A stretch of 46,499 bases of DNA. Origin: a virus. A program made the position numbers and the translations under genes. The stretch covers positions 1 through 46,499 of the IMG/VR virus record IMGVR_UViG_3300032236_001028, one strand, 5' to 3'. Below, piece by piece: positions 3,241-33,179 of the stretch. Each line of letters opens with the position of its first letter. The first letter of the stretch is position 1. Under the pieces are notes generated by a model. That model saw only the letters and a list, made by a program, of their open reading frames with translations, was not told the DNA's origin and did not search any database.

Positions 3241-4653
3241 ATGCTACTTGATATACAACAGAGGGGAACAAACCTCACAATTTCATACTACGACAAAGAC
3301 GGAAACACCAATTATAAGCAATATAAAATAAGTCAGGTTGCCAATTGGGAAGTATGTGGTGATAAAGATAAGAACAAATCAGATAAATTCACAAACTGGG
3401 ATGGCAGGCCGGTCAAAAGAGTAGCAGCAAAAGGTTTAGACAAATATTCTTTAATTCAATTCATAGATGAACTTTCATTCGAAGAGACTGAAGAGATCTT
3501 TGGTTATAATTTACCAAAGACTTTTTTCGTGGATATCGAGGTTGAAGTTAAAGATGGATTTCCAGAAGCCGAAAGAGCTGATACTCCGGTAACTACAATC
3601 GCAATCGTAACTCCAAATGCTCAAGCAATAGTACTAGCAACTGGAGATCTCGCACAAGATCAGCAGAAGAAAATTCAAAAAGACGTAGATGAATACTTTA
3701 AAGATACTGGAGTAAGATTCAGTTTTGTCTATAAGAAATTCGATTCAGAATACGATCTTCTCTATACTTTCTTTAAATCTTTCGTTTCTAAATTTCCGAT
3801 GGTCACCGGTTGGAACTTCATTAATTTTGACTGGAAATATCTAGTCAATAGAGCTTCTAAACTTGCAATCGATCCAGCAATATCAAGTCCGGTCGGAGAA
3901 CTTTGGGGAAAAGAGAATCTTCCTCTCCATGTTGGAATGATGGACTACTTGGAACTTTATAGAAAATGGGATCGTTCAGATTTCATTAAAGAAAATTTCA
4001 CTCTAGATTCTACTGCCGAAGCTGTGGTAGGACTTAAGAAGATCAAGTACAACGGTACAATACAAGATCTGTACGAAAAAGAATACACTAAATATGTCTA
4101 CTATAATGTAGTCGATACTTGTCTCGTATATCTTATCCATCAAAAGTTAAGAACTATGGACATTGCATTGACTATCGCGACTATGTGTAGAATAGGAATT
4201 TACAAGGCAGCAAGCCCGGTGGCGGTGACTGAATCTATGTTATGTAGAAAGTTCTTGGAGCAGAACAAGGTCATGGCTAAAGACTTTGTCGAAGACCAGA
4301 AGAAAGATGCACAATATGCAGGAGCTTATGTTAAAGCTCCAGTCGTAGGAATCCACAGGGCAGTAGCCTGTTTTGACTTTGCTTCTCTATATCCTTCGAT
4401 TATGAGACAAATTAACATCAGTCCAGAGTCTTTCATCAAGAAGACAGATCCGGTGGCAGCACAGAAAGAAAAGGCACCAGATAAGATCGTATCGGTAACT
4501 GGGGCTATCTATAAGAAAGAAGATTCTATCCTGAAGAACATTTTGACTGAACTTTACACTAATAGAAAGGTGTACAAAGGTAAGTCGAAAGATTACCAGA
4601 TAGAAGCTGACAATCTTAAAAAGGAAATTCAAAAACTTAAAAACGAGCTGTAG
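3241..4653 (+). CDS. 43A: Family B DNA polymerase, N-terminal half (gp43A): exonuclease plus palm motif A
   Basis: 470 residues carrying the first half of a T4 gp43-type replicative polymerase. The 3'-5' proofreading motifs are complete: Exo I VDIE (D98, E100), Exo II GWNFINFDWKYL, Exo III YYNVVDTCLVYL. Palm motif A is intact (FDFASLYPSIM, catalytic D379). The protein ends about 90 residues later in a charged helix (ADNLKKEIQKLKNEL), which corresponds to one helix of the fingers. Motifs B and C are missing here and are found in the gene at 9315. The stop at 4653 is followed by a separate short region and a terminator, so this is a real gene end. The enzyme can only work as a complex with the second half. 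Confidence 0.9.
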   Translation: MLLDIQQRGTNLTISYYDKDGNTNYKQYKISQVANWEVCGDKDKNKSDKFTNWDGRPVKRVAAKGLDKYSLIQFIDELSFEETEEIFGYNLPKTFFVDIEVEVKDGFPEAERADTPVTTIAIVTPNAQAIVLATGDLAQDQQKKIQKDVDEYFKDTGVRFSFVYKKFDSEYDLLYTFFKSFVSKFPMVTGWNFINFDWKYLVNRASKLAIDPAISSPVGELWGKENLPLHVGMMDYLELYRKWDRSDFIKENFTLDSTAEAVVGLKKIKYNGTIQDLYEKEYTKYVYYNVVDTCLVYLIHQKLRTMDIALTIATMCRIGIYKAASPVAVTESMLCRKFLEQNKVMAKDFVEDQKKDAQYAGAYVKAPVVGIHRAVACFDFASLYPSIMRQINISPESFIKKTDPVAAQKEKAPDKIVSVTGAIYKKEDSILKNILTELYTNRKVYKGKSKDYQIEADNLKKEIQKLKNEL

Positions 4654-8563: not shown

Positions 8564-9322
8564 ATGGAACTCAAAATCAAAAAAATTAATGCGATCGAAT
8601 TTCAGGCTTTCGTGAAAAAGCTTTTATCGATCGATAAGTTCATCTTCATCAAGTTGTCAGGTGACCAAGTTACATCATCAGTTTACCTTCCTCAGAAGGA
8701 CGCGGTAAAACTTACTTCTGTAAAGACATCTGAGATCTTTGAATTAGGTGATGCTCCGACATCTCCAGTCAAGATTTCTTTCTTTAACGGTAACAAAGTA
8801 ATTGATGCTCTTTCTCATTTCGGAGAAGAAATATCTGCAAAGATTTCTTATCAAAAAACAGGAGATGATTTCGTAGCTACTGACTTTACAGTGGAAGATG
8901 AAAACTTGAAGATCAATCTTTATTGTGCAGATCCAAGTCTTAATTTCATGGAAATGACAGATGATGAGATCAAAAGAGCTTTCGGAGCTCCTGGTAAAGT
9001 ATTCAGCTTTGAATTGTTAACTGTACATGTTGACAAAATGAAGTCTCTCTTTAAATTGGAAGATGACAAAGAACTCTTCAAGTTTAAGATTTCTGACAAA
9101 GGAGTACATGTGGCTGGAGATCGATATGATGCAGTTCTTACGCATCAAGTAGAGACTTTCTCAGATGAATTAACTGAAGTCAGTATCTACAAAAAGTACA
9201 TTCCGATTCTCGATAAGGAAAACTATAAAGTCATCGTATGCGAGAATAAAGTAATTTTCAAATCACTTGATACTAACACAGTTCTTACTGTGGCAGTAGC
9301 AATCACAGACGATAATGAGTAA
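8564..9322 (+). CDS. 45: DNA polymerase sliding clamp (gp45-like)
   Basis: 252 residues, slightly longer than T4 gp45 (228). There are no catalytic motifs. The sequence alternates strands and short helices as in a two-domain clamp subunit (start MELKIKKINAIEFQAFVKKL, second half FSFELLTVHVDKMKSLFKL). It ends with paired strands (YKVIVCENKVIFKSLDTN, LTVAVAI), like the C-terminal domain of gp45. Its stop overlaps the start of the polymerase C-terminal half by 8 bases, the expected context for a clamp. In T4 the clamp also activates late transcription with gp55 and gp33. Identification is by context and pattern, so moderate. Confidence 0.68.
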   Translation: MELKIKKINAIEFQAFVKKLLSIDKFIFIKLSGDQVTSSVYLPQKDAVKLTSVKTSEIFELGDAPTSPVKISFFNGNKVIDALSHFGEEISAKISYQKTGDDFVATDFTVEDENLKINLYCADPSLNFMEMTDDEIKRAFGAPGKVFSFELLTVHVDKMKSLFKLEDDKELFKFKISDKGVHVAGDRYDAVLTHQVETFSDELTEVSIYKKYIPILDKENYKVIVCENKVIFKSLDTNTVLTVAVAITDDNE

Positions 9323-10457
9323 AAGAGAACAACTAGCTGAGCTACAACAGAAACTCGCGGAAGTAGAATTTGAAGCTCAAAAATATTACAACTTTGAACA
9401 GGCTGTAAAATTGATGTTGAACTCTATTTACGGAGCCTTCGGTAACGAATGGTTCTATTTCTTCAATGTAGATATCGCAGAAACTATCACCTTACAGGGA
9501 CAGGATGCGATACTCTACACTGAAAAAATGATCAATAAGTACTTTCAGGAATTCTGGCCAAAAGATAAAGAAGTCCATGATAAGATGGGCATCACTTCTG
9601 CAAAGCCTGTTAAAAAACCGATAGTCATTTACATTGATACAGATTCTTGTTATTTAAGCTTCCAGGAAGTTTTAGAAAACTGTGATTGGAAAGGAAGCGA
9701 AAAAGACTTTGTCTTACAACTCTATGAAAATAGACTTGCAGATTTCAACAATAAGATATTAGAGAAATATGCAAAAGATCTTAATGCTGATAACTTCTTG
9801 AATTTTGAATTGGAGACAGTAGCTAAAAATGCGATCTGGTTAGCGAAGAAAAAATACATGCAGAACATCGTATGGAAAGATCCAAATATCCATTACGAAG
9901 AACTCAGCAAGATATCAGCTAAGGGATTTGAGATCATTCAATCTAGTACTCCACAGTTTGCTAGAACTAAACTTAAAGAAGTTCTGAAATTCATCTTCTC
10001 TGTAGATGAAGTTAAATTAGGAGACATCGTTAATCTATTGAAAAAAATCAAAAGAGAGTTTAAATTAGCTAATACTGAACATATAACTTTCAATGTCAGA
10101 ATTAATAACTATAAGAAATACATTATCTCTGACTACGATCATTTTGAAATAGCTTCAGGATGTCCAATTCATATCAGAGCAGCAGGTTATTATAACTATC
10201 TTTTGAACAGCAGCAAATACAAGAACAGATATAAGACTCTTACCGATGGTGAGAAAGTAAAATATTACATCAGCAAAGATAAGAGCTGCAACGTCTTTGC
10301 ATTCCCTCCAGGTGATTATCCAGTTGAATTTGCACCTAGCGTAGATCATGATCTACAGTTTGAAAGATGCATCATAGATCCTATCAATAGAGTTATTGAT
10401 GCAATGGGACTAGGAAAGCTAGACAGAAATCTAGTTTATTCTTCCTCAGTCTTCTAA
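9315..10457 (+). CDS. 43B: Family B DNA polymerase, C-terminal half (gp43B): motifs B and C, thumb
   Basis: 380 residues completing the polymerase begun at 3241. It starts with a charged helix (REQLAELQQKLAEVEFEAQ) that would pair with the last helix of the A half to form the fingers. Motif B follows directly (KLMLNSIYGAFGNEWF, K32), then motif C YIDTDSCYLS (D108, D110) and the KKKY motif (LAKKKYMQNIVWKD). The thumb and a C-terminal region then follow, ending LDRNLVYSSSVF, a plausible clamp-binding tail. The two halves total 850 residues, near T4 gp43 (898). Translation is probably coupled to the clamp gene through the 8-base overlap. Confidence 0.9.
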   Translation: MSKREQLAELQQKLAEVEFEAQKYYNFEQAVKLMLNSIYGAFGNEWFYFFNVDIAETITLQGQDAILYTEKMINKYFQEFWPKDKEVHDKMGITSAKPVKKPIVIYIDTDSCYLSFQEVLENCDWKGSEKDFVLQLYENRLADFNNKILEKYAKDLNADNFLNFELETVAKNAIWLAKKKYMQNIVWKDPNIHYEELSKISAKGFEIIQSSTPQFARTKLKEVLKFIFSVDEVKLGDIVNLLKKIKREFKLANTEHITFNVRINNYKKYIISDYDHFEIASGCPIHIRAAGYYNYLLNSSKYKNRYKTLTDGEKVKYYISKDKSCNVFAFPPGDYPVEFAPSVDHDLQFERCIIDPINRVIDAMGLGKLDRNLVYSSSVF

Positions 10458-24650: not shown

Positions 24651-24658
24651 TATATAGA
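24651..24658 (+). promoter_or_regulatory. Late promoter element TATATAGA
   Basis: GATATATAGAAATAA ends 23 bases before the ATG of the protease-scaffold gene, in the 51-base gap after the portal gene. Confidence 0.62.
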
Positions 24659-24681: not shown

Positions 24682-26508
24682 ATGTCCAAAAAATTACTCA
24701 TTCTAGAACGTTCTGGAGAAACCCTCGTTAAAAAAGGAGATGATGATAGCATCACTCTTGAAGGTACTTTTACCCAGTTCGACGTCAAAAATAAAAATGG
24801 CAGAATCTACGAAGAAAAAGAATTCATGCCTCATCTTAAAGAACTTCAAGAAAAGGTGAAAAAAGGAAAGCTCTTAGGAGAACTCGATCACCCTACAAAA
24901 TTTGATATTTCTTTACAGAACGTATCTCACGTAATTGAAGATTTAGAATATGACGCAGCTAAGAAGCAAGTTGTAGGAAGAATCAAATTACTTAACACTG
25001 ACAAAGGCAAGCAAGCTAAAGCATTAGTTGAAGCTGGAATTCCTCTTCACATTTCTTCAAGAGCAGCAGGTAACGTTGGCAACGACGGTAAAGTAAAAAT
25101 CCAAAAACTTTTTACTTACGATTTAGTAGCTGATCCTGGTTTCGCAGCAGCAGAACTTCATAGAGTAAACGAATCTTTTGGATTCAACGAGAACGAAGAT
25201 CTTTTCATCTATGAGTTAGATGACAATTCATCAGACATTACCCCTACCAATAAATATAACAAAATAGAAGAAACGATGAGCAACTCAAATTTTGTCTCAA
25301 TCGAGGACTTTAACAGGTATTCAGAGTACGTAAAACAACAATTCGAAGCTTTGAAGAACGGTCAAGAATCTTCAGAGAAGCTTGACAAGGTCGTCGAATA
25401 TTCTAACCATCTTGCGGAGAATATGAACAAGCTATTCAGTTACACTAACTATTTAGCAGAAAACCTTGACAAGAACATATCTCATTCAGATTATGTAGTC
25501 GAGAGCTTAAATAGCATCAAAGAATATTGTAACTATTTAGCAGAAAATGTTAGCAAAGGAATCTCTTATTCAGAGTATGTTGCTGAACAAACTAACTCAT
25601 TAGTAGAATATACTAAATACGTAGCAGAGAAAGTAGATCAAGGAATTGGTTACAGTGAATATCTTGCTGAAAACCAAGATAAGATGATTCAATTCTCTAA
25701 CTACTTAGCTGAAAACCAAAACAATGCTATCGGTTACTCTAAGTACTTAGCAGAGAAAATGGAACAAGGGATTGGTTACAGTGAATATCTTGCTGAAAAC
25801 CAAAACAACATGATCAAGTACTCAGAGTACATTAAAGAGAATGTTGAAAACCTCGGCAAATACGCAAATTACTTAGCTGAAAACTTGAACGCAGTAAACG
25901 AAAAGTCTACTAAGGATGAAACTCCAACAGAAGCTCCAGTAGCAGTTGAAGAATCAGCAAAAGCTATTCCATCTACTGCATCTACAGTAGCTAAAATCGA
26001 TTCTCTTTTAGAATCAGTTAAGTCTAACAAACAAGAAGCAACTGAAGAGAAACACTTCATGAGATTCTTAGACACTGCAAAGAGAAACGAATTTGAATCT
26101 CTTAATGAAAGTGTACAAGCTCAAATCACTGAAGCTTTCGCAAGCAACAGATACATGTCAGTACAAGATGCTAACAGAATCTGGAACTCTTGCTTTACTC
26201 CAGCGGCTCCAGCAAAACCTGATTATATCAGCAACATGCCAGAGAAGTACAAAGCAATATACGAATCATTAAGTCCTGCTCAAAAGGATTCAATCCACAA
26301 GCAAGCTAAATTTCATTCTTTAGAGACTCAATATCAAATCGATAATTTCTGGCAAACTAGAGATCTTAGAGCTAAGAAAGTTGAGATTCAGAAGATTGAT
26401 GAAAGCGCAGCACCAGTAGAGACAGTTCAAACTACTCCAGCTGGCGTACCTACACAAGTTGTAGAGAATGTTAAAGCAGCTTTAATGTCAAGATTCAAAA
26501 ATATCTAA
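24682..26508 (+). CDS. 21: Prohead protease (gp21) fused to core scaffold
   Basis: 608 residues. Residues 1-170 are a gp21-type serine protease: FDVKNKNGRIY, LLGELDHP with H70, and HISSRAAG with S125/S126, matching the T4 LGELNHP and SSRG motifs, then VADPGF. Residues about 199-608 take the place of scaffold gp22. From 241 to 404 they consist of 14-residue tandem repeats of type SEYLAENQDKMIQF, followed by a linker and a helical C-terminal part. No separate gp22 gene lies between portal and capsid. The protease would cut itself out and degrade the scaffold during maturation. A possible internal start at Met199 could give free scaffold. Confidence 0.88.
   Translation: MSKKLLILERSGETLVKKGDDDSITLEGTFTQFDVKNKNGRIYEEKEFMPHLKELQEKVKKGKLLGELDHPTKFDISLQNVSHVIEDLEYDAAKKQVVGRIKLLNTDKGKQAKALVEAGIPLHISSRAAGNVGNDGKVKIQKLFTYDLVADPGFAAAELHRVNESFGFNENEDLFIYELDDNSSDITPTNKYNKIEETMSNSNFVSIEDFNRYSEYVKQQFEALKNGQESSEKLDKVVEYSNHLAENMNKLFSYTNYLAENLDKNISHSDYVVESLNSIKEYCNYLAENVSKGISYSEYVAEQTNSLVEYTKYVAEKVDQGIGYSEYLAENQDKMIQFSNYLAENQNNAIGYSKYLAEKMEQGIGYSEYLAENQNNMIKYSEYIKENVENLGKYANYLAENLNAVNEKSTKDETPTEAPVAVEESAKAIPSTASTVAKIDSLLESVKSNKQEATEEKHFMRFLDTAKRNEFESLNESVQAQITEAFASNRYMSVQDANRIWNSCFTPAAPAKPDYISNMPEKYKAIYESLSPAQKDSIHKQAKFHSLETQYQIDNFWQTRDLRAKKVEIQKIDESAAPVETVQTTPAGVPTQVVENVKAALMSRFKNI
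25276..25278 (+). promoter_or_regulatory. Possible internal start for free scaffold
   Basis: In-frame ATG (Met199) of the protease-scaffold gene. The 35 bases before it (ACCAATAAATATAACAAAAT then AGAAGAAACG) are A/T-rich and read like the intergenic leaders of this genome. The protein they encode (TPTNKYNKIEET) looks like linker. Translation from here would give a 410-residue scaffold without protease. Confidence 0.4.
25402..25893 (+). repeat. Coding tandem repeat: 14-residue (42-base) units in scaffold
   Basis: Eleven full copies and one partial of a 14-residue unit, consensus S-x-Y-L-A-E-N-x-x-x-x-I-x-Y, residues 241-404. Spacing is exactly 14 in every copy, i.e. two heptads, as expected for a helical rod or coiled coil. 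Eight of twelve units contain LAE, two VAE, one IKE and one VVE. Two units around 25640 and 25766 share a nearly identical DNA stretch (GGTTACAGTGAATATCTTGC), pointing to recent duplication. Confidence 0.9.
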
Positions 26509-26518: not shown

Positions 26519-27067
26519 ATGCAACATATAAAATTATTCGAAGATTTTTTGAATGAAAATCTTATTAAAGAATCTCAAAAAGCAGCAGATGCTCTGATTG
26601 ATATACTATCCAACATGGAAGCACATCACTATTCAGATGACAAAGAATTTGCTAAAGACATGATTAAAATAGCTGGCTTTAAAAATTCTGAAGCAAGCTT
26701 ATTAAAAGACATATTCAACAAGTACTGGGATTTAGATGCTAAGAAAAGAACAGACTACACTGCTAAAGATTGGGCAGAATGGTTGAAAAAATCTAGTCAT
26801 GGCTGGGTATTTGAAAATTCTAAATTGAATGAAAGCAAAATTGCATTAGGTTCTGAAGTTCTTAAAAATACTAATCTCTTTAACGAGGTTGTAAAAACAC
26901 TTTTAGATTATGCTAAGAAAAATAGCACTAAATACAATCTTAAAGTTGTAACTAAGAACAATTTAGAAAAATGGTTAAAGGAAGATGCTGACATGAACGA
27001 AGATTTCGATTATTTAGAAGATCTTGATTTCACTTTAAGTGGTTTCTTTGAATATATGGATAATTAA
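26519..27067 (+). CDS. Putative internal head protein with capsid targeting sequence
   Basis: 182 residues. The N-terminus MQHIKLFEDFLNE is the same motif as in the gene at 390 and resembles the T4 capsid targeting peptide, with an LNE cleavage-type site after residue 13. A second site, KLNE|SK, lies near residue 105. The rest is helical and charged (KTLLDYAKKNSTKYNL, then NNLEKWLKEDAD) without a known fold. Its location between protease-scaffold and capsid genes supports a prohead core role. Confidence 0.65.
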   Translation: MQHIKLFEDFLNENLIKESQKAADALIDILSNMEAHHYSDDKEFAKDMIKIAGFKNSEASLLKDIFNKYWDLDAKKRTDYTAKDWAEWLKKSSHGWVFENSKLNESKIALGSEVLKNTNLFNEVVKTLLDYAKKNSTKYNLKVVTKNNLEKWLKEDADMNEDFDYLEDLDFTLSGFFEYMDN

Positions 27068-27192: not shown

Positions 27193-28854
27193 ATGCACAA
27201 TCAATTAATCAACGAGTCAGAAGTTGTAAAGACCTGGGCTCCTGTGATTGAAGAGGCTACTGGCATTTCCGATAAGAGCAAACTCTCTTGGATGTCTAAA
27301 TATTGCCACTTCCACCAATTAAACGAGAACGTTTACAACCAAGTTCACCTTAACCCTAACATGAACCTTTATGGTATGGGTGCGGTTGCATTCCCTGGCG
27401 ATCCAGGAACTAACGCATCATTCCCTAGCCAAGCGGCAGGTTCTGGTGACAAGCCTTTCAGCTTACTTCCACTTGCTATGCAAGTTGCAGCTCAAACTGT
27501 AGGTTTGGATTTAGTACCAGTTGTTCCAATGAGCGGTCCATTAGGAGTTCTTACTTATTTAGACTTCATCTACCAAGGTGGTCGTCTTGATAGCAATGAA
27601 CCACCTTTAATGGTTAGAATCGACGGTGGATCTACTACTTACACTAGTAACCATGACGCAACAACTTGGGTAGCTAACACAGCTTACTACTTAAGAGATT
27701 CTGGCGGTACAACTCAATACGTATTGACTTTCATCGGTCTTTCTCGTATCGACGGATGGCCTATCTTTAAGGTGAATGCTTACAATAGTGGTATTCAACC
27801 AAACGGTACTGCAGGTGCAGTAACATTAGCAGCAGCAGTTGCTGGTGGTCACATCTACAGTGCAGCTTCAGGTGGTACTAAATGGGCAGACTTGGCAGCA
27901 GGTGCAGCTCTTTTAGTTAAAGCTCTTGAAGATCACGTAACTGGTTTCTCTGGTTCAGGTCTTGCTAACGGTGGTACAACTAACAGCAACGATCCTTATT
28001 TAAGACAATCAGGTGAAAACACAGCAGATAACCAATTAGGTTTATCTCTTTTCAACAAATCTGTTGAAGCGTTCACATACCAAGTTGCTGCAGCAGTAAC
28101 TCGTGAACAAGTTCAAGATTTGAAGCAATTCGGTATCGATGCAGTAGCTCAAGTAGAAGCTGTATTAGTTAACGAAATCACTCAATCGATCAACAAGTTG
28201 ATCCTCGAAAGATTATTCGCTTTAGGTGCTACAAACGCTAATAAGGTGTATGCTATCGACGGAACAAACCTCAACTTATATGTTGCAAGTTCTTCAACTT
28301 CTACATCTCTTTCTTTAGGTAAAGATTGGGAAGGGAATGCAGTAAGTATCAGCACTAACTCAACTGTTCCTACATCAGGTGATAACGCAGGTACTTTACA
28401 AAGAAGAATTCTTTCTAAGATTCTTGCTTCATCTAACTTAATCGCGATCAGAGGTCGTAGAGGTGCAGCTAACTTCGCTGTTACAAACGGTCAAGTTGCT
28501 TCAGCTTTACAAGACATCGCAGGATTCATCACTTATCCTTTGGCTAACACAGTTAACCAAGCAGGTGGATCTCTCTACCCAGTTGGTGCTATCGCAGGCG
28601 TAACAGTCTACGTAGATCCTAACATGAGCTGGACAGATACAAGAATCTGCGTTGGTAGAAAAGGTGACGGAAACTCTCCAGGTTTGGTATTCATGCCTTA
28701 CTTAATGGCAGAAAGCGTACAAACAATCGCAGAGCTTACAATGGCTCCTAAGATTGCAGTAAAATCAAGATTCGCTCTTGTAGACGCTGGTTTCTTCCCA
28801 TTCCTTTACTACTACACAATGCGTGTAAGATTCGACACATATCAAATCATCTAA
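27193..28854 (+). CDS. 23: Major capsid protein (gp23)
   Basis: 553 residues (T4 gp23: 521). HK97-fold capsid subunit. The start of the mature fold is visible as LLPLAMQVAAQTVGLDLVP, then PMSGPLGVLTYLDFIYQGG. The C-terminal region is typical (APKIAVKSRFALVDAGFFPF, then YYYTMRVRFDTYQII). The N-terminal pro-segment has protease-type sites INE|S (8), IEE|A (21) and LNE|N (45); the last is the best candidate for maturation. Residues 61-88 (GMGAVA...GSGDKP) recur in the protein at 1714. A Gly/Thr-rich insertion lies about 130-260. It has its own late promoter and terminator. Confidence 0.93.
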   Translation: MHNQLINESEVVKTWAPVIEEATGISDKSKLSWMSKYCHFHQLNENVYNQVHLNPNMNLYGMGAVAFPGDPGTNASFPSQAAGSGDKPFSLLPLAMQVAAQTVGLDLVPVVPMSGPLGVLTYLDFIYQGGRLDSNEPPLMVRIDGGSTTYTSNHDATTWVANTAYYLRDSGGTTQYVLTFIGLSRIDGWPIFKVNAYNSGIQPNGTAGAVTLAAAVAGGHIYSAASGGTKWADLAAGAALLVKALEDHVTGFSGSGLANGGTTNSNDPYLRQSGENTADNQLGLSLFNKSVEAFTYQVAAAVTREQVQDLKQFGIDAVAQVEAVLVNEITQSINKLILERLFALGATNANKVYAIDGTNLNLYVASSSTSTSLSLGKDWEGNAVSISTNSTVPTSGDNAGTLQRRILSKILASSNLIAIRGRRGAANFAVTNGQVASALQDIAGFITYPLANTVNQAGGSLYPVGAIAGVTVYVDPNMSWTDTRICVGRKGDGNSPGLVFMPYLMAESVQTIAELTMAPKIAVKSRFALVDAGFFPFLYYYTMRVRFDTYQII

Positions 28855-30072: not shown

Positions 30073-31845
30073 ATGAAGAAAATAAAACTATTAGAACAGT
30101 TCTTAGAAGAACAAAAAATGGACGAGGGTCTATTTGATGTAGTCACTAAGAGCAAGGCTTTCATTAGAAACCCAATTTCAGCTACAAAGATCACCAATAA
30201 TGGAAAGAAATTAGCACAGGCTCAAATTGATGATGCTGCTAATGATCTAGATTTTGAAAAGAGAAAACTTGCTGCAAGTAAAGCTGCAAAAGCTAAGATA
30301 GAAAACCTTAAGAAAAAAGGTGACAATCAAGGTGCTCAAAAAGTCAAAGACGATTTTGATGATAGCAAAGATGTATTAAGCAAAGCGCATGACTTAAAAG
30401 GCGATTCATTAGAAGATAAAGTGAAAAGCATAGAAGATAGAATAGAAGATCTTTCTAAGAAGAATTCTACTCTACAGGATCTCGCATCTCTCGTAAAAAC
30501 TGCAGCTAGAGTGAAGAAGAACGAAGTTCTTTTGAAAGGAGCTGATGAAGAAGAGAAGAAGCAGTTACAGATCCAGATGAAGAAGGACATGGAGCATATT
30601 GACAAATTAGAAAAAGGTTTCGGAGAGTATGAAGGTTCTAAAGATAACGGAGAAGAAAAGAAACCTGAAGATAAAGATAAAAAGAACGATGTTAAGGTCG
30701 ACACTGAAGTGAAAGATCAACCTCAAGAAGAGCCTAAGAAAGCAGAAGAAACACCTGCTCAGAAAAAATCAGAACCTCTTACTCAAAAATCGGCAGAAAA
30801 GCCAGCTGAAGAATCTCCAGAAGATGAGGTGGCTAGAACGAGACAAGATGTTAGAGATGTACAGAACGACATATCAAATCATAGAAATGCTATTAAAAAC
30901 TATCAAAAGAAGATAGAAGACATAAAAGCTGGGCATTATGATAAAAAAACAATAACAGATCCTCAGGCTGAAATAACTAAATATCAAGATCAGATTAAAG
31001 TTAGAACGAATAAGGCGGCAGAAGCCCAAGCTAATTTAGAAGATGCTGTGAAAGCAAGTCAAGACGCTGAAAGAAAATTACCTAAAAAGGAAGAACCTAA
31101 AGCTGAGGAAAAACCAAAGGAAGAACCTAAAAAGGAAGAACCTAAAAAGGAAGAACCTAAAAAGGAAGAACCTAAAGCTGAGGAAAAACCAAAGGAAGAA
31201 CCTAAAAAGGAAGAACCTAAAAAGGAAGAACCTAAAGCAGAGGAAAAACCGACAGAAGAGCCTAAAAAAGGAATTTCAAGATCTAAATATGATGATGCAC
31301 CTGCAGATTCAACTAAACCTTGGCAGACTAAAAAGGAAGAACCTAAAACTGAATCTCCTAAAAGAAAAGAAGTAGAAGATCAGATAGCTAAAGATAATGC
31401 TGAACCTGCAAAAGTAACTACTGATACCAAGCAATATAAGATCGATAAACTCGAAAAAGATGTAAAAGACGCTGAAGACGAAAGAAAGAAAATCTTATTA
31501 GATCCAAAGTATCAGGAAGGCGTTAAGAAAGACAAAGAGTTACAAGATAAAGCAGATGCTGTCGATAAAGAACTTTCTGCAATAGACAAAGAGAAAGATC
31601 CTGATTCTTACAATGCTAAGATGAAAGAAGTTCAAGCGGCTAATCAAGAAATAAGAGATTTCAGAAAGAAATTCTCAGAAGACAATAAAGATTTAGAAGA
31701 CAGAGCAGATGCTGCAGAAGAGAAAGTTAAAAAACTCAAAAATGAATTACAAGCAGCTAAAGAAGAGAAAGATGAACCTAAGAAAGAACAGGAATCATTT
31801 GACTTCACTTCTCTAAAAGGCTTTAAAGATTTCCTTAATGGCTAA
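30073..31845 (+). CDS. Long coiled-coil head protein with PKKEE repeats and targeting sequence
   Basis: 590 residues. The N-terminus MKKIKLLEQFLEE resembles the targeting motif with an LEE site. The body is very charged: helical and coiled-coil parts flank a Pro/Lys/Glu repeat tract at residues 337-396, and further coiled coil follows (DRADAAEEKVKKLKNELQAA). The C-terminus GFKDFLNG again echoes the targeting motif. It is likely an extended, non-globular prohead core or internal protein. The next gene overlaps its end by 8 bases. Confidence 0.6.
   Translation: MKKIKLLEQFLEEQKMDEGLFDVVTKSKAFIRNPISATKITNNGKKLAQAQIDDAANDLDFEKRKLAASKAAKAKIENLKKKGDNQGAQKVKDDFDDSKDVLSKAHDLKGDSLEDKVKSIEDRIEDLSKKNSTLQDLASLVKTAARVKKNEVLLKGADEEEKKQLQIQMKKDMEHIDKLEKGFGEYEGSKDNGEEKKPEDKDKKNDVKVDTEVKDQPQEEPKKAEETPAQKKSEPLTQKSAEKPAEESPEDEVARTRQDVRDVQNDISNHRNAIKNYQKKIEDIKAGHYDKKTITDPQAEITKYQDQIKVRTNKAAEAQANLEDAVKASQDAERKLPKKEEPKAEEKPKEEPKKEEPKKEEPKKEEPKAEEKPKEEPKKEEPKKEEPKAEEKPTEEPKKGISRSKYDDAPADSTKPWQTKKEEPKTESPKRKEVEDQIAKDNAEPAKVTTDTKQYKIDKLEKDVKDAEDERKKILLDPKYQEGVKKDKELQDKADAVDKELSAIDKEKDPDSYNAKMKEVQAANQEIRDFRKKFSEDNKDLEDRADAAEEKVKKLKNELQAAKEEKDEPKKEQESFDFTSLKGFKDFLNG
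31081..31260 (+). repeat. 15-base coding tandem repeat (PKKEE type)
   Basis: Twelve consecutive 15-base units made of three variants: CCTAAAAAGGAAGAA (PKKEE), CCTAAAGCTGAGGAA (PKAEE) and AAACCAAAGGAAGAA (KPKEE), arranged in higher-order blocks. Near-perfect DNA identity between copies points to recent slippage or recombination and probable length variation between isolates. Confidence 0.9.
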
Positions 31846-32356
31846 ATCACTTAAGAATCCAAAAATCAGTATCAGGGACTGGGGTAAAGCTCCAAGAAAA
31901 CATGGGATATTACTCAAGTTCCTGACTCCTGAACAGAAGAAATTCTTGTTCGCTAACGATCACCTCAAATTTGTATCTAGGAACAAGGACACGATGTCTG
32001 CAATATTTCACGTATTTTTCCAGGAACAGGTCAGAAAAGATGCTAGAGCAACTCTACACAATCCTTTCACTGGTACTTTCACGAATCGATATCAATTGAA
32101 CAGAGACGCCCAATTAGTAGATTGGGAATGTGCAATATGTCTAGCTGAGATTAAATCCAGCATGATAGACTATTCACCTGAGAACTTTTTATGTTCTAAA
32201 TGTAAAGAGGCTCATTCAGGAGCCAAGCAAATAGATTCCAGAATCAAACAGAATTCTATCAAATTCACAGAACACTGTAAAGAGATGCTCACTTCTGAGC
32301 AGAAAGAATTTATTAGATTTGTGAAGCTTAATCAAAAGCGAGAGCTTCTTCAATAG
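31838..32356 (+). CDS. Unknown zinc-ribbon-like protein
   Basis: 172 residues. A four-cysteine zinc site is visible, CAIC and CSKC separated by 16 residues (near 110-134). Around it are basic helices (QEQVRKDARATLHNPF; KLNQKRELLQ). The N-terminal part (SIRDWGKAPRKHGILLKFLT) is also basic, suggesting nucleic-acid contact. The start overlaps the preceding gene by 8 bases and the 3' end overlaps the minus-strand gene by 29 bases, so it closes the late operon. No family recognised. Confidence 0.65.
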   Translation: MAKSLKNPKISIRDWGKAPRKHGILLKFLTPEQKKFLFANDHLKFVSRNKDTMSAIFHVFFQEQVRKDARATLHNPFTGTFTNRYQLNRDAQLVDWECAICLAEIKSSMIDYSPENFLCSKCKEAHSGAKQIDSRIKQNSIKFTEHCKEMLTSEQKEFIRFVKLNQKRELLQ

Positions 32357-33179
32357 AAATTTTAGGGAAACATGTGATCTTACTCACCTGAGATGCATTG
32401 TAAACTTTCACCTTTCTCTTTTCTAAAGGTTCTACTATCGTTTCAAAACTAGGCAACATGATACGCTCCATGACGCTCGTATCTGCAGTAGAAACGTATC
32501 CATCATGCCAATGCGTTTGTTTGGTTGTATTCTGCATATCAAATCCTAAGAGCACTATTCTTTTTGCTCCTAGATGATAAGCAAGATTGATTGCAGCATA
32601 TCCGGAATTTCCACCATCTCTTAACCCGTATGACATTGTCTCGAGACCAGTCTTTCCAGTGTTTAGTAAGTTAATAACGTCACTTCTTTTTGGTTCCGGT
32701 CTACATGTGACTTTGATCCCGGTAAATGCGTCGATCTCTTTAGGAAACCACTCGTAGAAACGGGTATCACTCCAATATAAAACCTGAGCAAAAGGAATGC
32801 TCATGAAAGCTTTATTGACAGCAATTACAGTCTTGTCTCTTAAGAGCTCGAAATCAAAATCTTTGAGAGAAGGACCTCCTCCAACGATGAATATTGTATC
32901 ACCGAGAAAAATTGGATCGATGTAAGTGTAATTATCATACTGCCAAGTCTTGGCTATCTTTCGATGCGTTTCTTCAGGCTCGATTATCTTTCTTTTATCT
33001 TCTTGAGTCAGAAGTCCAAGATTGGCTCTATCCCTTAAAGCATTTTCTCTCGAAGATATTTCCAAGACTCTCACCGGTCTATCACTAAGGTTTCTTATTT
33101 CGTGTGGTTCAATCTTGATTGTGCTAGTTCCTCTACGAACTGTAAATGTACCTGAACCGTTAGATCTGTTAGTTGCCAT
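32328..33179 (-). CDS. DUF115/MptE-like Rossmann protein, minus strand
   Basis: 283 residues. Residues about 95-115 (IFIVGGGPSLKDFDFELLRD) and NSGYAAINLAYHLGAKRIVLLGFDM near 190-215 are the two signature segments of the DUF115 / 6-hydroxymethylpterin pyrophosphokinase-like group. That group includes enzymes linked to glycan or flagellin modification. The N-terminal 70 residues (TFTVRRGTSTIKIEPHEIRN) look like a small beta domain. It is the only minus-strand gene I support in the window and ends convergently inside the zinc-ribbon gene. Substrate unknown; a cargo gene modifying phage or host surface is possible. Confidence 0.72.
   Translation of the reverse strand: MATNRSNGSGTFTVRRGTSTIKIEPHEIRNLSDRPVRVLEISSRENALRDRANLGLLTQEDKRKIIEPEETHRKIAKTWQYDNYTYIDPIFLGDTIFIVGGGPSLKDFDFELLRDKTVIAVNKAFMSIPFAQVLYWSDTRFYEWFPKEIDAFTGIKVTCRPEPKRSDVINLLNTGKTGLETMSYGLRDGGNSGYAAINLAYHLGAKRIVLLGFDMQNTTKQTHWHDGYVSTADTSVMERIMLPSFETIVEPLEKRKVKVYNASQVSKITCFPKISIEEALAFD

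Follow-up and report, generated by a model that had tools for sequence, protein, structure and literature searches.

Phage lambda C/Nu3 is a protease-scaffold gene with a nested in-frame scaffold. The T4 prohead protease gp21 cleaves after L/I-x-E, with LIE-9 as the site at its own N-terminus, and the T4 scaffold gp22 is cut to multiple fragments (PMC9026906; PMC9958956). T4 has ~580 copies of gp22 and 55 of gp21 (PMC9958956). In HSV-1, both protease and scaffold are encoded by UL26, and ~90% of the scaffold comes from UL26.5, which starts inside UL26 (PMC12474303). Annotations already include fused genes named 'prohead core scaffolding and protease'. A literature search found no description of a fused and nested arrangement or of a 14-aa array in T4-like or huge phages, and nothing relevant on repeat scaffolds or internal translation in prohead protease-scaffold genes.

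The DNA examined here, the window, is the whole of a 46.5-kb virus fragment (IMGVR_UViG_3300032236_001028). It was compared with 38 IMG/VR loci, 80 loci around the 642-kb phage LR756502 and 16 around the 735-kb phage LR756501. Public relatives comprise five distinct huge-phage genomes of 462-735 kb (L040-L044). The window probably encodes a one-gene T4-type core with two in-frame products, a helical rod and a protease that would clear the core at many [LI]xE motifs.

A gp21-type protease fused to a scaffold

The fused prohead protease-scaffold gene (24682..26508, + strand) encodes 608 aa. The N-terminal part of the protein belongs to Peptidase_S77 (Pfam, 6e-15, above the 27-bit cut-off), the first part of the ORF matches the phrog_207 head maturation protease (1.5e-38), and the T4 gp21 structure 5JBL (PDB) matches the protease part (5e-6). 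The S77 domain (24733..25164, +) contains H70 (24889-24891) and S125/S126 (25054-25059), all three invariant in the family-wide alignment. The profile matches and invariant catalytic residues bear out the initial annotation, which had described a gp21-type protease with H70 and S125/S126 fused to a scaffold. The motif ILE9 (24700..24708, +), whose I7 and E9 are invariant in 31 sequences, is the probable N-terminal self-cleavage site and the counterpart of LIE-9 in T4 gp21 (PMC9026906). VNE164 (25165..25173, +), with N163 and E164 invariant in 31 sequences, may be a C-terminal processing site. Since the protease part holds 8 [LI]xE motifs, cutting at every such site is impossible.

Gene order in the window is portal-protease-scaffold-capsid. 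The portal gene (PF07230, 1e-76) adjoins the fused gene, and the major capsid protein (27193..28854, +) belongs to the gp23 family (PF07068, 2e-34). A TATATA element (24651..24656, +) lies upstream of the fused gene, and TATATA is found within ~45 nt 5' of many structural genes in the window and its relatives, making it a candidate late promoter. In the window it occurs shortly 5' of 19368, 22933, 24682, 26519, 28951, 36700, 41431 and 44664. The element differs from the T4 late promoter motif TATAAATA.

Elsewhere in the window a family B DNA polymerase is split across two ORFs, 3241-4653 (profile positions 16-141) and 9315-10457 (139-360), with both ribonucleotide reductase subunit genes (4791 and 5775) between them. 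The sole minus-strand ORF of the structural region, 32328-33179, has a weak MptE-like match (PF01973, 5.7e-9). An S21 gene, sought for membership in the bS21-phage clades, was not found within the 46.5-kb fragment, which is a partial genome.

A 14-residue array in the scaffold

The scaffold part contains an array of 12 gap-free units of 14 aa (25399..25902, +; aa 240-407) with the consensus YSEYLAENxxxxIx. Initially, 11.7 units of exactly 14 residues had been placed at 25402-25893; the exact period was recovered, and that span covers the same array one codon off register and three codons short. Compared with itself, the array matches at 62 residues when shifted by 14 and at 67 when shifted by 28; 2000 shuffles gave no more than 28 at any lag from 5 to 29. 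Position 5 is L in eight units, V in three and I in one, and position 7 is Glu in 12/12. The earlier count of (L/I)xE in 9/12 units (LAE eight times, IKE once) was reproduced at the repeat position, the remaining three units having VxE. Identity between units is 0.34-0.41 at third codon positions vs 0.69-0.74 at second positions, indicating ancient units that selection maintains at the protein level. TRF did not detect the array at the DNA level.

The hydrophobic moment of the array peaks at 103 degrees per residue, the heptad or coiled-coil value, which supports the idea of a two-heptad structural module put forward with the repeats. Position 7 lies ~170 degrees from the hydrophobic face. Structure prediction had been suggested as a check, and AlphaFold drew a helix over residues 272-405, weakly supporting this geometry at low confidence (pLDDT roughly 45-50; model mean 52). 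We infer an extended rod of two-heptad helical modules, whose length would be ~25 nm were the whole array helical.

A conserved helical domain (25978..26505, +; HFMRFL ... YQIDNFW) follows at the C-terminus, with pLDDT ~75-80 over aa 456-500 and 510-560. It is probably a docking domain for shell or portal. The domain is common to the fused proteins of PTm1 and Lak phages (hhalign, ~97%). It was also considered as a homologue of T4 gp22 and rejected, because hhalign found no homology (probability near 0). The window scaffold falls outside the gp22 family by sequence homology and is gp22-like by position and composition only.

The fused protease-scaffold with its array is real and conserved, a variant of the T4-type core that recurs in phages up to 735 kb. 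Y-type relatives have the same array as the window, in degenerate form in L040 and L029, where Glu7 is present in just 7/12 units. Glu7 is nearly fixed in four clades and is the most conserved exposed position, the other exposed positions being variable. The clade L032-L038 has a W-type array that retains the 14-aa period, Ala6 and Asn10; position 7 is Lys in 26/32 of its units. Wherever both conserved end units were found, their spacing is an exact multiple of 14, and automated parsing gave 8 to 20 slots across relatives. The fused scaffold of PTm1 (L046) has repeats of its own, of 16/32 aa, several of them with LSE, possibly a convergent design with one LxE per unit.

Probable cleavage motifs in the scaffold and other presumed substrates

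Within the array [LI]xE occurs 11 times (9 at the repeat position) vs 2.9 expected, and at least 11 were reached in 0/5000 shuffles. [LI]xD, [LI]xN and [LI]xQ are absent from it and [LI]xK occurs twice. The complete window scaffold, encoded between protease and capsid, has 16 [LI]xE vs 5.1 expected, and T4 gp22, an established cleavage substrate, has 16 vs 5.8; [LI]xD and [LI]xK are not in excess in either. Enrichment of [LI]xE is about two- to three-fold in the scaffolds of T4, GAP32, PA5oct, PTm1 and the window family, generally not shared by [LI]xD or [LI]xK. The PAU and Lak scaffolds showed no significant [LI]xE enrichment. The longest stretch free of [LI]xE is 46 aa in the window scaffold, 44 in T4 gp22 and 125-144 in scaffolds of the W-type clade.

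L/I-x-E-type motifs are also present at the capsid boundary, at the ends of capsid-targeting-sequence (CTS)-like N-termini and at the protease N-terminus. The predicted propeptide cleavage site of the capsid protein is LNE45 (27319..27327, +). With very different flanks, H-x-[LIM]-x-E recurs where the propeptide should end in all the Y-type and W-type capsid proteins read. Four window proteins start like the T4 CTS: MKHVKLFEDFLNE (390), MQHIKLFEDFLNE (26519), MKHIKIYEEFLNT (28951), which is without Glu, and MKKIKLLEQFLEE (30073). The CTS-like N-termini end in FLNE/FLEE and share the pattern M-K-H-[VI]-K-L-F-E-D-F-L-N-E. The 182-aa protein whose N-terminal motif lies at 26519..26557 (+) is a probable internal head protein. 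Together the capsid protein and the CTS-like N-termini point to a putative (L/I)xE-type specificity common to the other presumed substrates.

The ORF 30073-31845, which has one of the CTS-like starts, contains an imperfect Pro/Lys/Glu-coding tandem repeat at 31080-31266 with 15- and 75-bp periods, and the 75-bp copies are 100% identical.

A self-digesting scaffold is plausible and partly supported. The initial annotation had gone further, treating each repeat as a cleavage cassette. The conserved sites and the [LI]xE excess favor a protease-sensitive rod, but a general rule of one site in every unit is not supported, given L032-L038 and the three VxE units of the window itself. Because the L032-L038 arrays would have Lys at P1 while the capsid site remains LNE, one cut per repeat is unneeded family-wide. 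Each repeat may tentatively be viewed as a disassembly cassette, in which hundreds of rods per prohead would be cut after nearly every LAE/IAE to give ~14-residue peptides of a size to exit, in phages with genomes to 735 kb.

Alternatively, the array could be a structural coiled coil only, with Glu7 serving inter-helix or shell contacts and the scaffold either cut at a few [LI]xE outside the array or leaving nearly whole. A core Leu with a charged residue two places later is natural in coiled coils, the reversed motif E-x-[LI] is likewise in excess in the arrays, and the W-type clade combines the 14-aa period and Lys7 with a capsid site that is still HALNE. However, the excess of [LI]xE is not accompanied by one of [LI]xK or [LI]xD, conservation of Glu7 in four clades far exceeds that of the remaining exposed positions, and T4-type scaffolds without arrays (T4, GAP32, PA5oct) have the same [LI]xE excess. 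A purely structural role is rather unlikely. A coiled coil may also shield its cleavage sites.

A probable nested scaffold start at Met199

Among the new proposals made here, that of a nested scaffold start is the strongest; the initial annotation did not contain it. A predicted reading frame of 410 aa (25276..26508, +) opens within the fused gene at the ATG 25276-25278 (Met199), a conserved Met in a start-like context. Met199 lies directly 5' of the conserved sequence with which the scaffold opens (FVSxEDFxxY for the window clade). Every Y-type and W-type relative read across the region retains the Met, behind a linker of variable length and sequence. When the upstream 30 nt were scored as a start, Met199 ranked first among in-frame internal ATGs at 13/23 loci and second to fifth at nine; the exception is the 735-kb phage L044, in which its context is ordinary.

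Codon-usage-corrected synonymous constraint is strongest in the gene over an A-rich block around this ATG (25249..25296, +), with the top window at aa 190-200 (z 4.6, rank 1/588). The peak lies over the internal ATG in three clades (rank 1 of 588, 615 and 770 windows). No peak was seen in the mixed group L008-L013, where the alignment near the Met is poor. An overlapping gene was rejected as the cause of the constraint, since all other frames are closed across the block, and local RNA structure at the ATG was rejected as a signal because it is mostly below the gene average and not distinctive.

In the Mahaphage clade the constraint peak is upstream of the Met, over AACTTTAGGATATA. This element is near-invariant in the fused-gene linker of loci L080-L174, ~40-50 nt 5' of the conserved internal Met, and no other part of the gene is under stronger synonymous constraint. 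Given the TATATA-type elements ahead of many structural genes, AACTTTAGGATATA may be an internal late promoter. M184/M186 was rejected as the Mahaphage internal start, being swapped for L, V or I in many loci where the downstream Met is kept.

Sequence signatures place an internal in-frame start where the scaffold begins, an arrangement of the UL26/UL26.5 and C/Nu3 type. Two products, the protease-scaffold fusion and a free scaffold, are very probably made from the gene, and for the window clade the start signatures argue strongly for both. Met199 might instead survive from an ancestor whose scaffold had a gene of its own, or be conserved for the sake of the protein, with the full-length fusion as sole product. 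PAU and HTVC008M do have protease and scaffold as separate adjacent genes, and the unremarkable context in L044 would fit. Yet the constraint peaks exactly at Met199 in three clades, the upstream DNA resembles a true start and drift would be expected at 30% protein identity, so that this reading is improbable. With a nested start at 25276, most scaffold chains would be without protease.

Repeat number and head size

The suggestion that repeat number is a ruler for core length and head size appears very improbable: array length does change by whole 14-aa steps wherever both anchors are found, automated parsing yields 8 to 20 slots and core mutants are reported to alter T4 head length, but the records of 462, 635, 642, 636 and 735 kb have 12, 12, 12, 11 and 13 units, a weak test because the expected radius change is only ~17%.

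Proposed assembly and clearance of the core

Translation from 24682 would give a minor protease-scaffold fusion, and translation from Met199 (25276), by internal initiation or from an internal transcript, the bulk of the scaffold, free of protease. In both products the array would form the rod and the C-terminal domain would dock on shell or portal. Once the shell closes, the protease would release itself near E9 and E164, remove the capsid propeptide by cutting after LNE45, and shorten the internal proteins that bear a CTS by cutting after FLNE/FLEE. It would also cut the rod at many regularly spaced [LI]xE, and the core would exit as short peptides.

Such a locus bears on how an internal core is assembled and later removed in the largest phage heads. 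One gene holds protease, rod and, very probably, a nested scaffold in excess, with probable protease sites every 14 residues. It offers exact peptides and a start codon as metaproteome targets. The W-type clade, with period kept and motif lost, is a natural control, and the CTS-like N-terminus is a tag with which unknown internal head proteins of such phages can be found.

Comparison with known systems

The window virus resembles T4 gp21/gp22 in its S77 domain, portal-protease-scaffold-capsid order, CTS-like internal proteins and [LI]xE-rich helical scaffold, and in having L/I-x-E sites at the expected places. It differs from T4 in the fusion of protease and scaffold, the probable nested start and the regular 14-aa array; the internal start of T4 is within gene 21 and yields a short protease. 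Lambda C/Nu3 differs from the window gene in its S49-type protease, unrelated scaffold and lack of such an array. Tenacibaculum phage PTm1 and Lak phage share the fused S77 protease and the homologous C-terminal domain, whereas their middle region consists of the 16/32-aa repeats (PTm1) or an acidic region (Lak). Herpesvirus UL26/UL26.5 resembles the arrangement predicted here in combining a protease-scaffold fusion with an in-frame nested scaffold-only product, in excess in the herpesvirus (PMC12474303). Herpesvirus self-cleavage parts protease from scaffold, and the scaffold is thought to be largely coiled coil (PMC12474303), both comparable to what is predicted for the window gene. Unlike the window gene, UL26 encodes a protease of a family unrelated by motif, with a few defined R and M sites and no repeat array. 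A fused gene with an internal start would answer the same need for excess scaffold as HSV-1 and T4.
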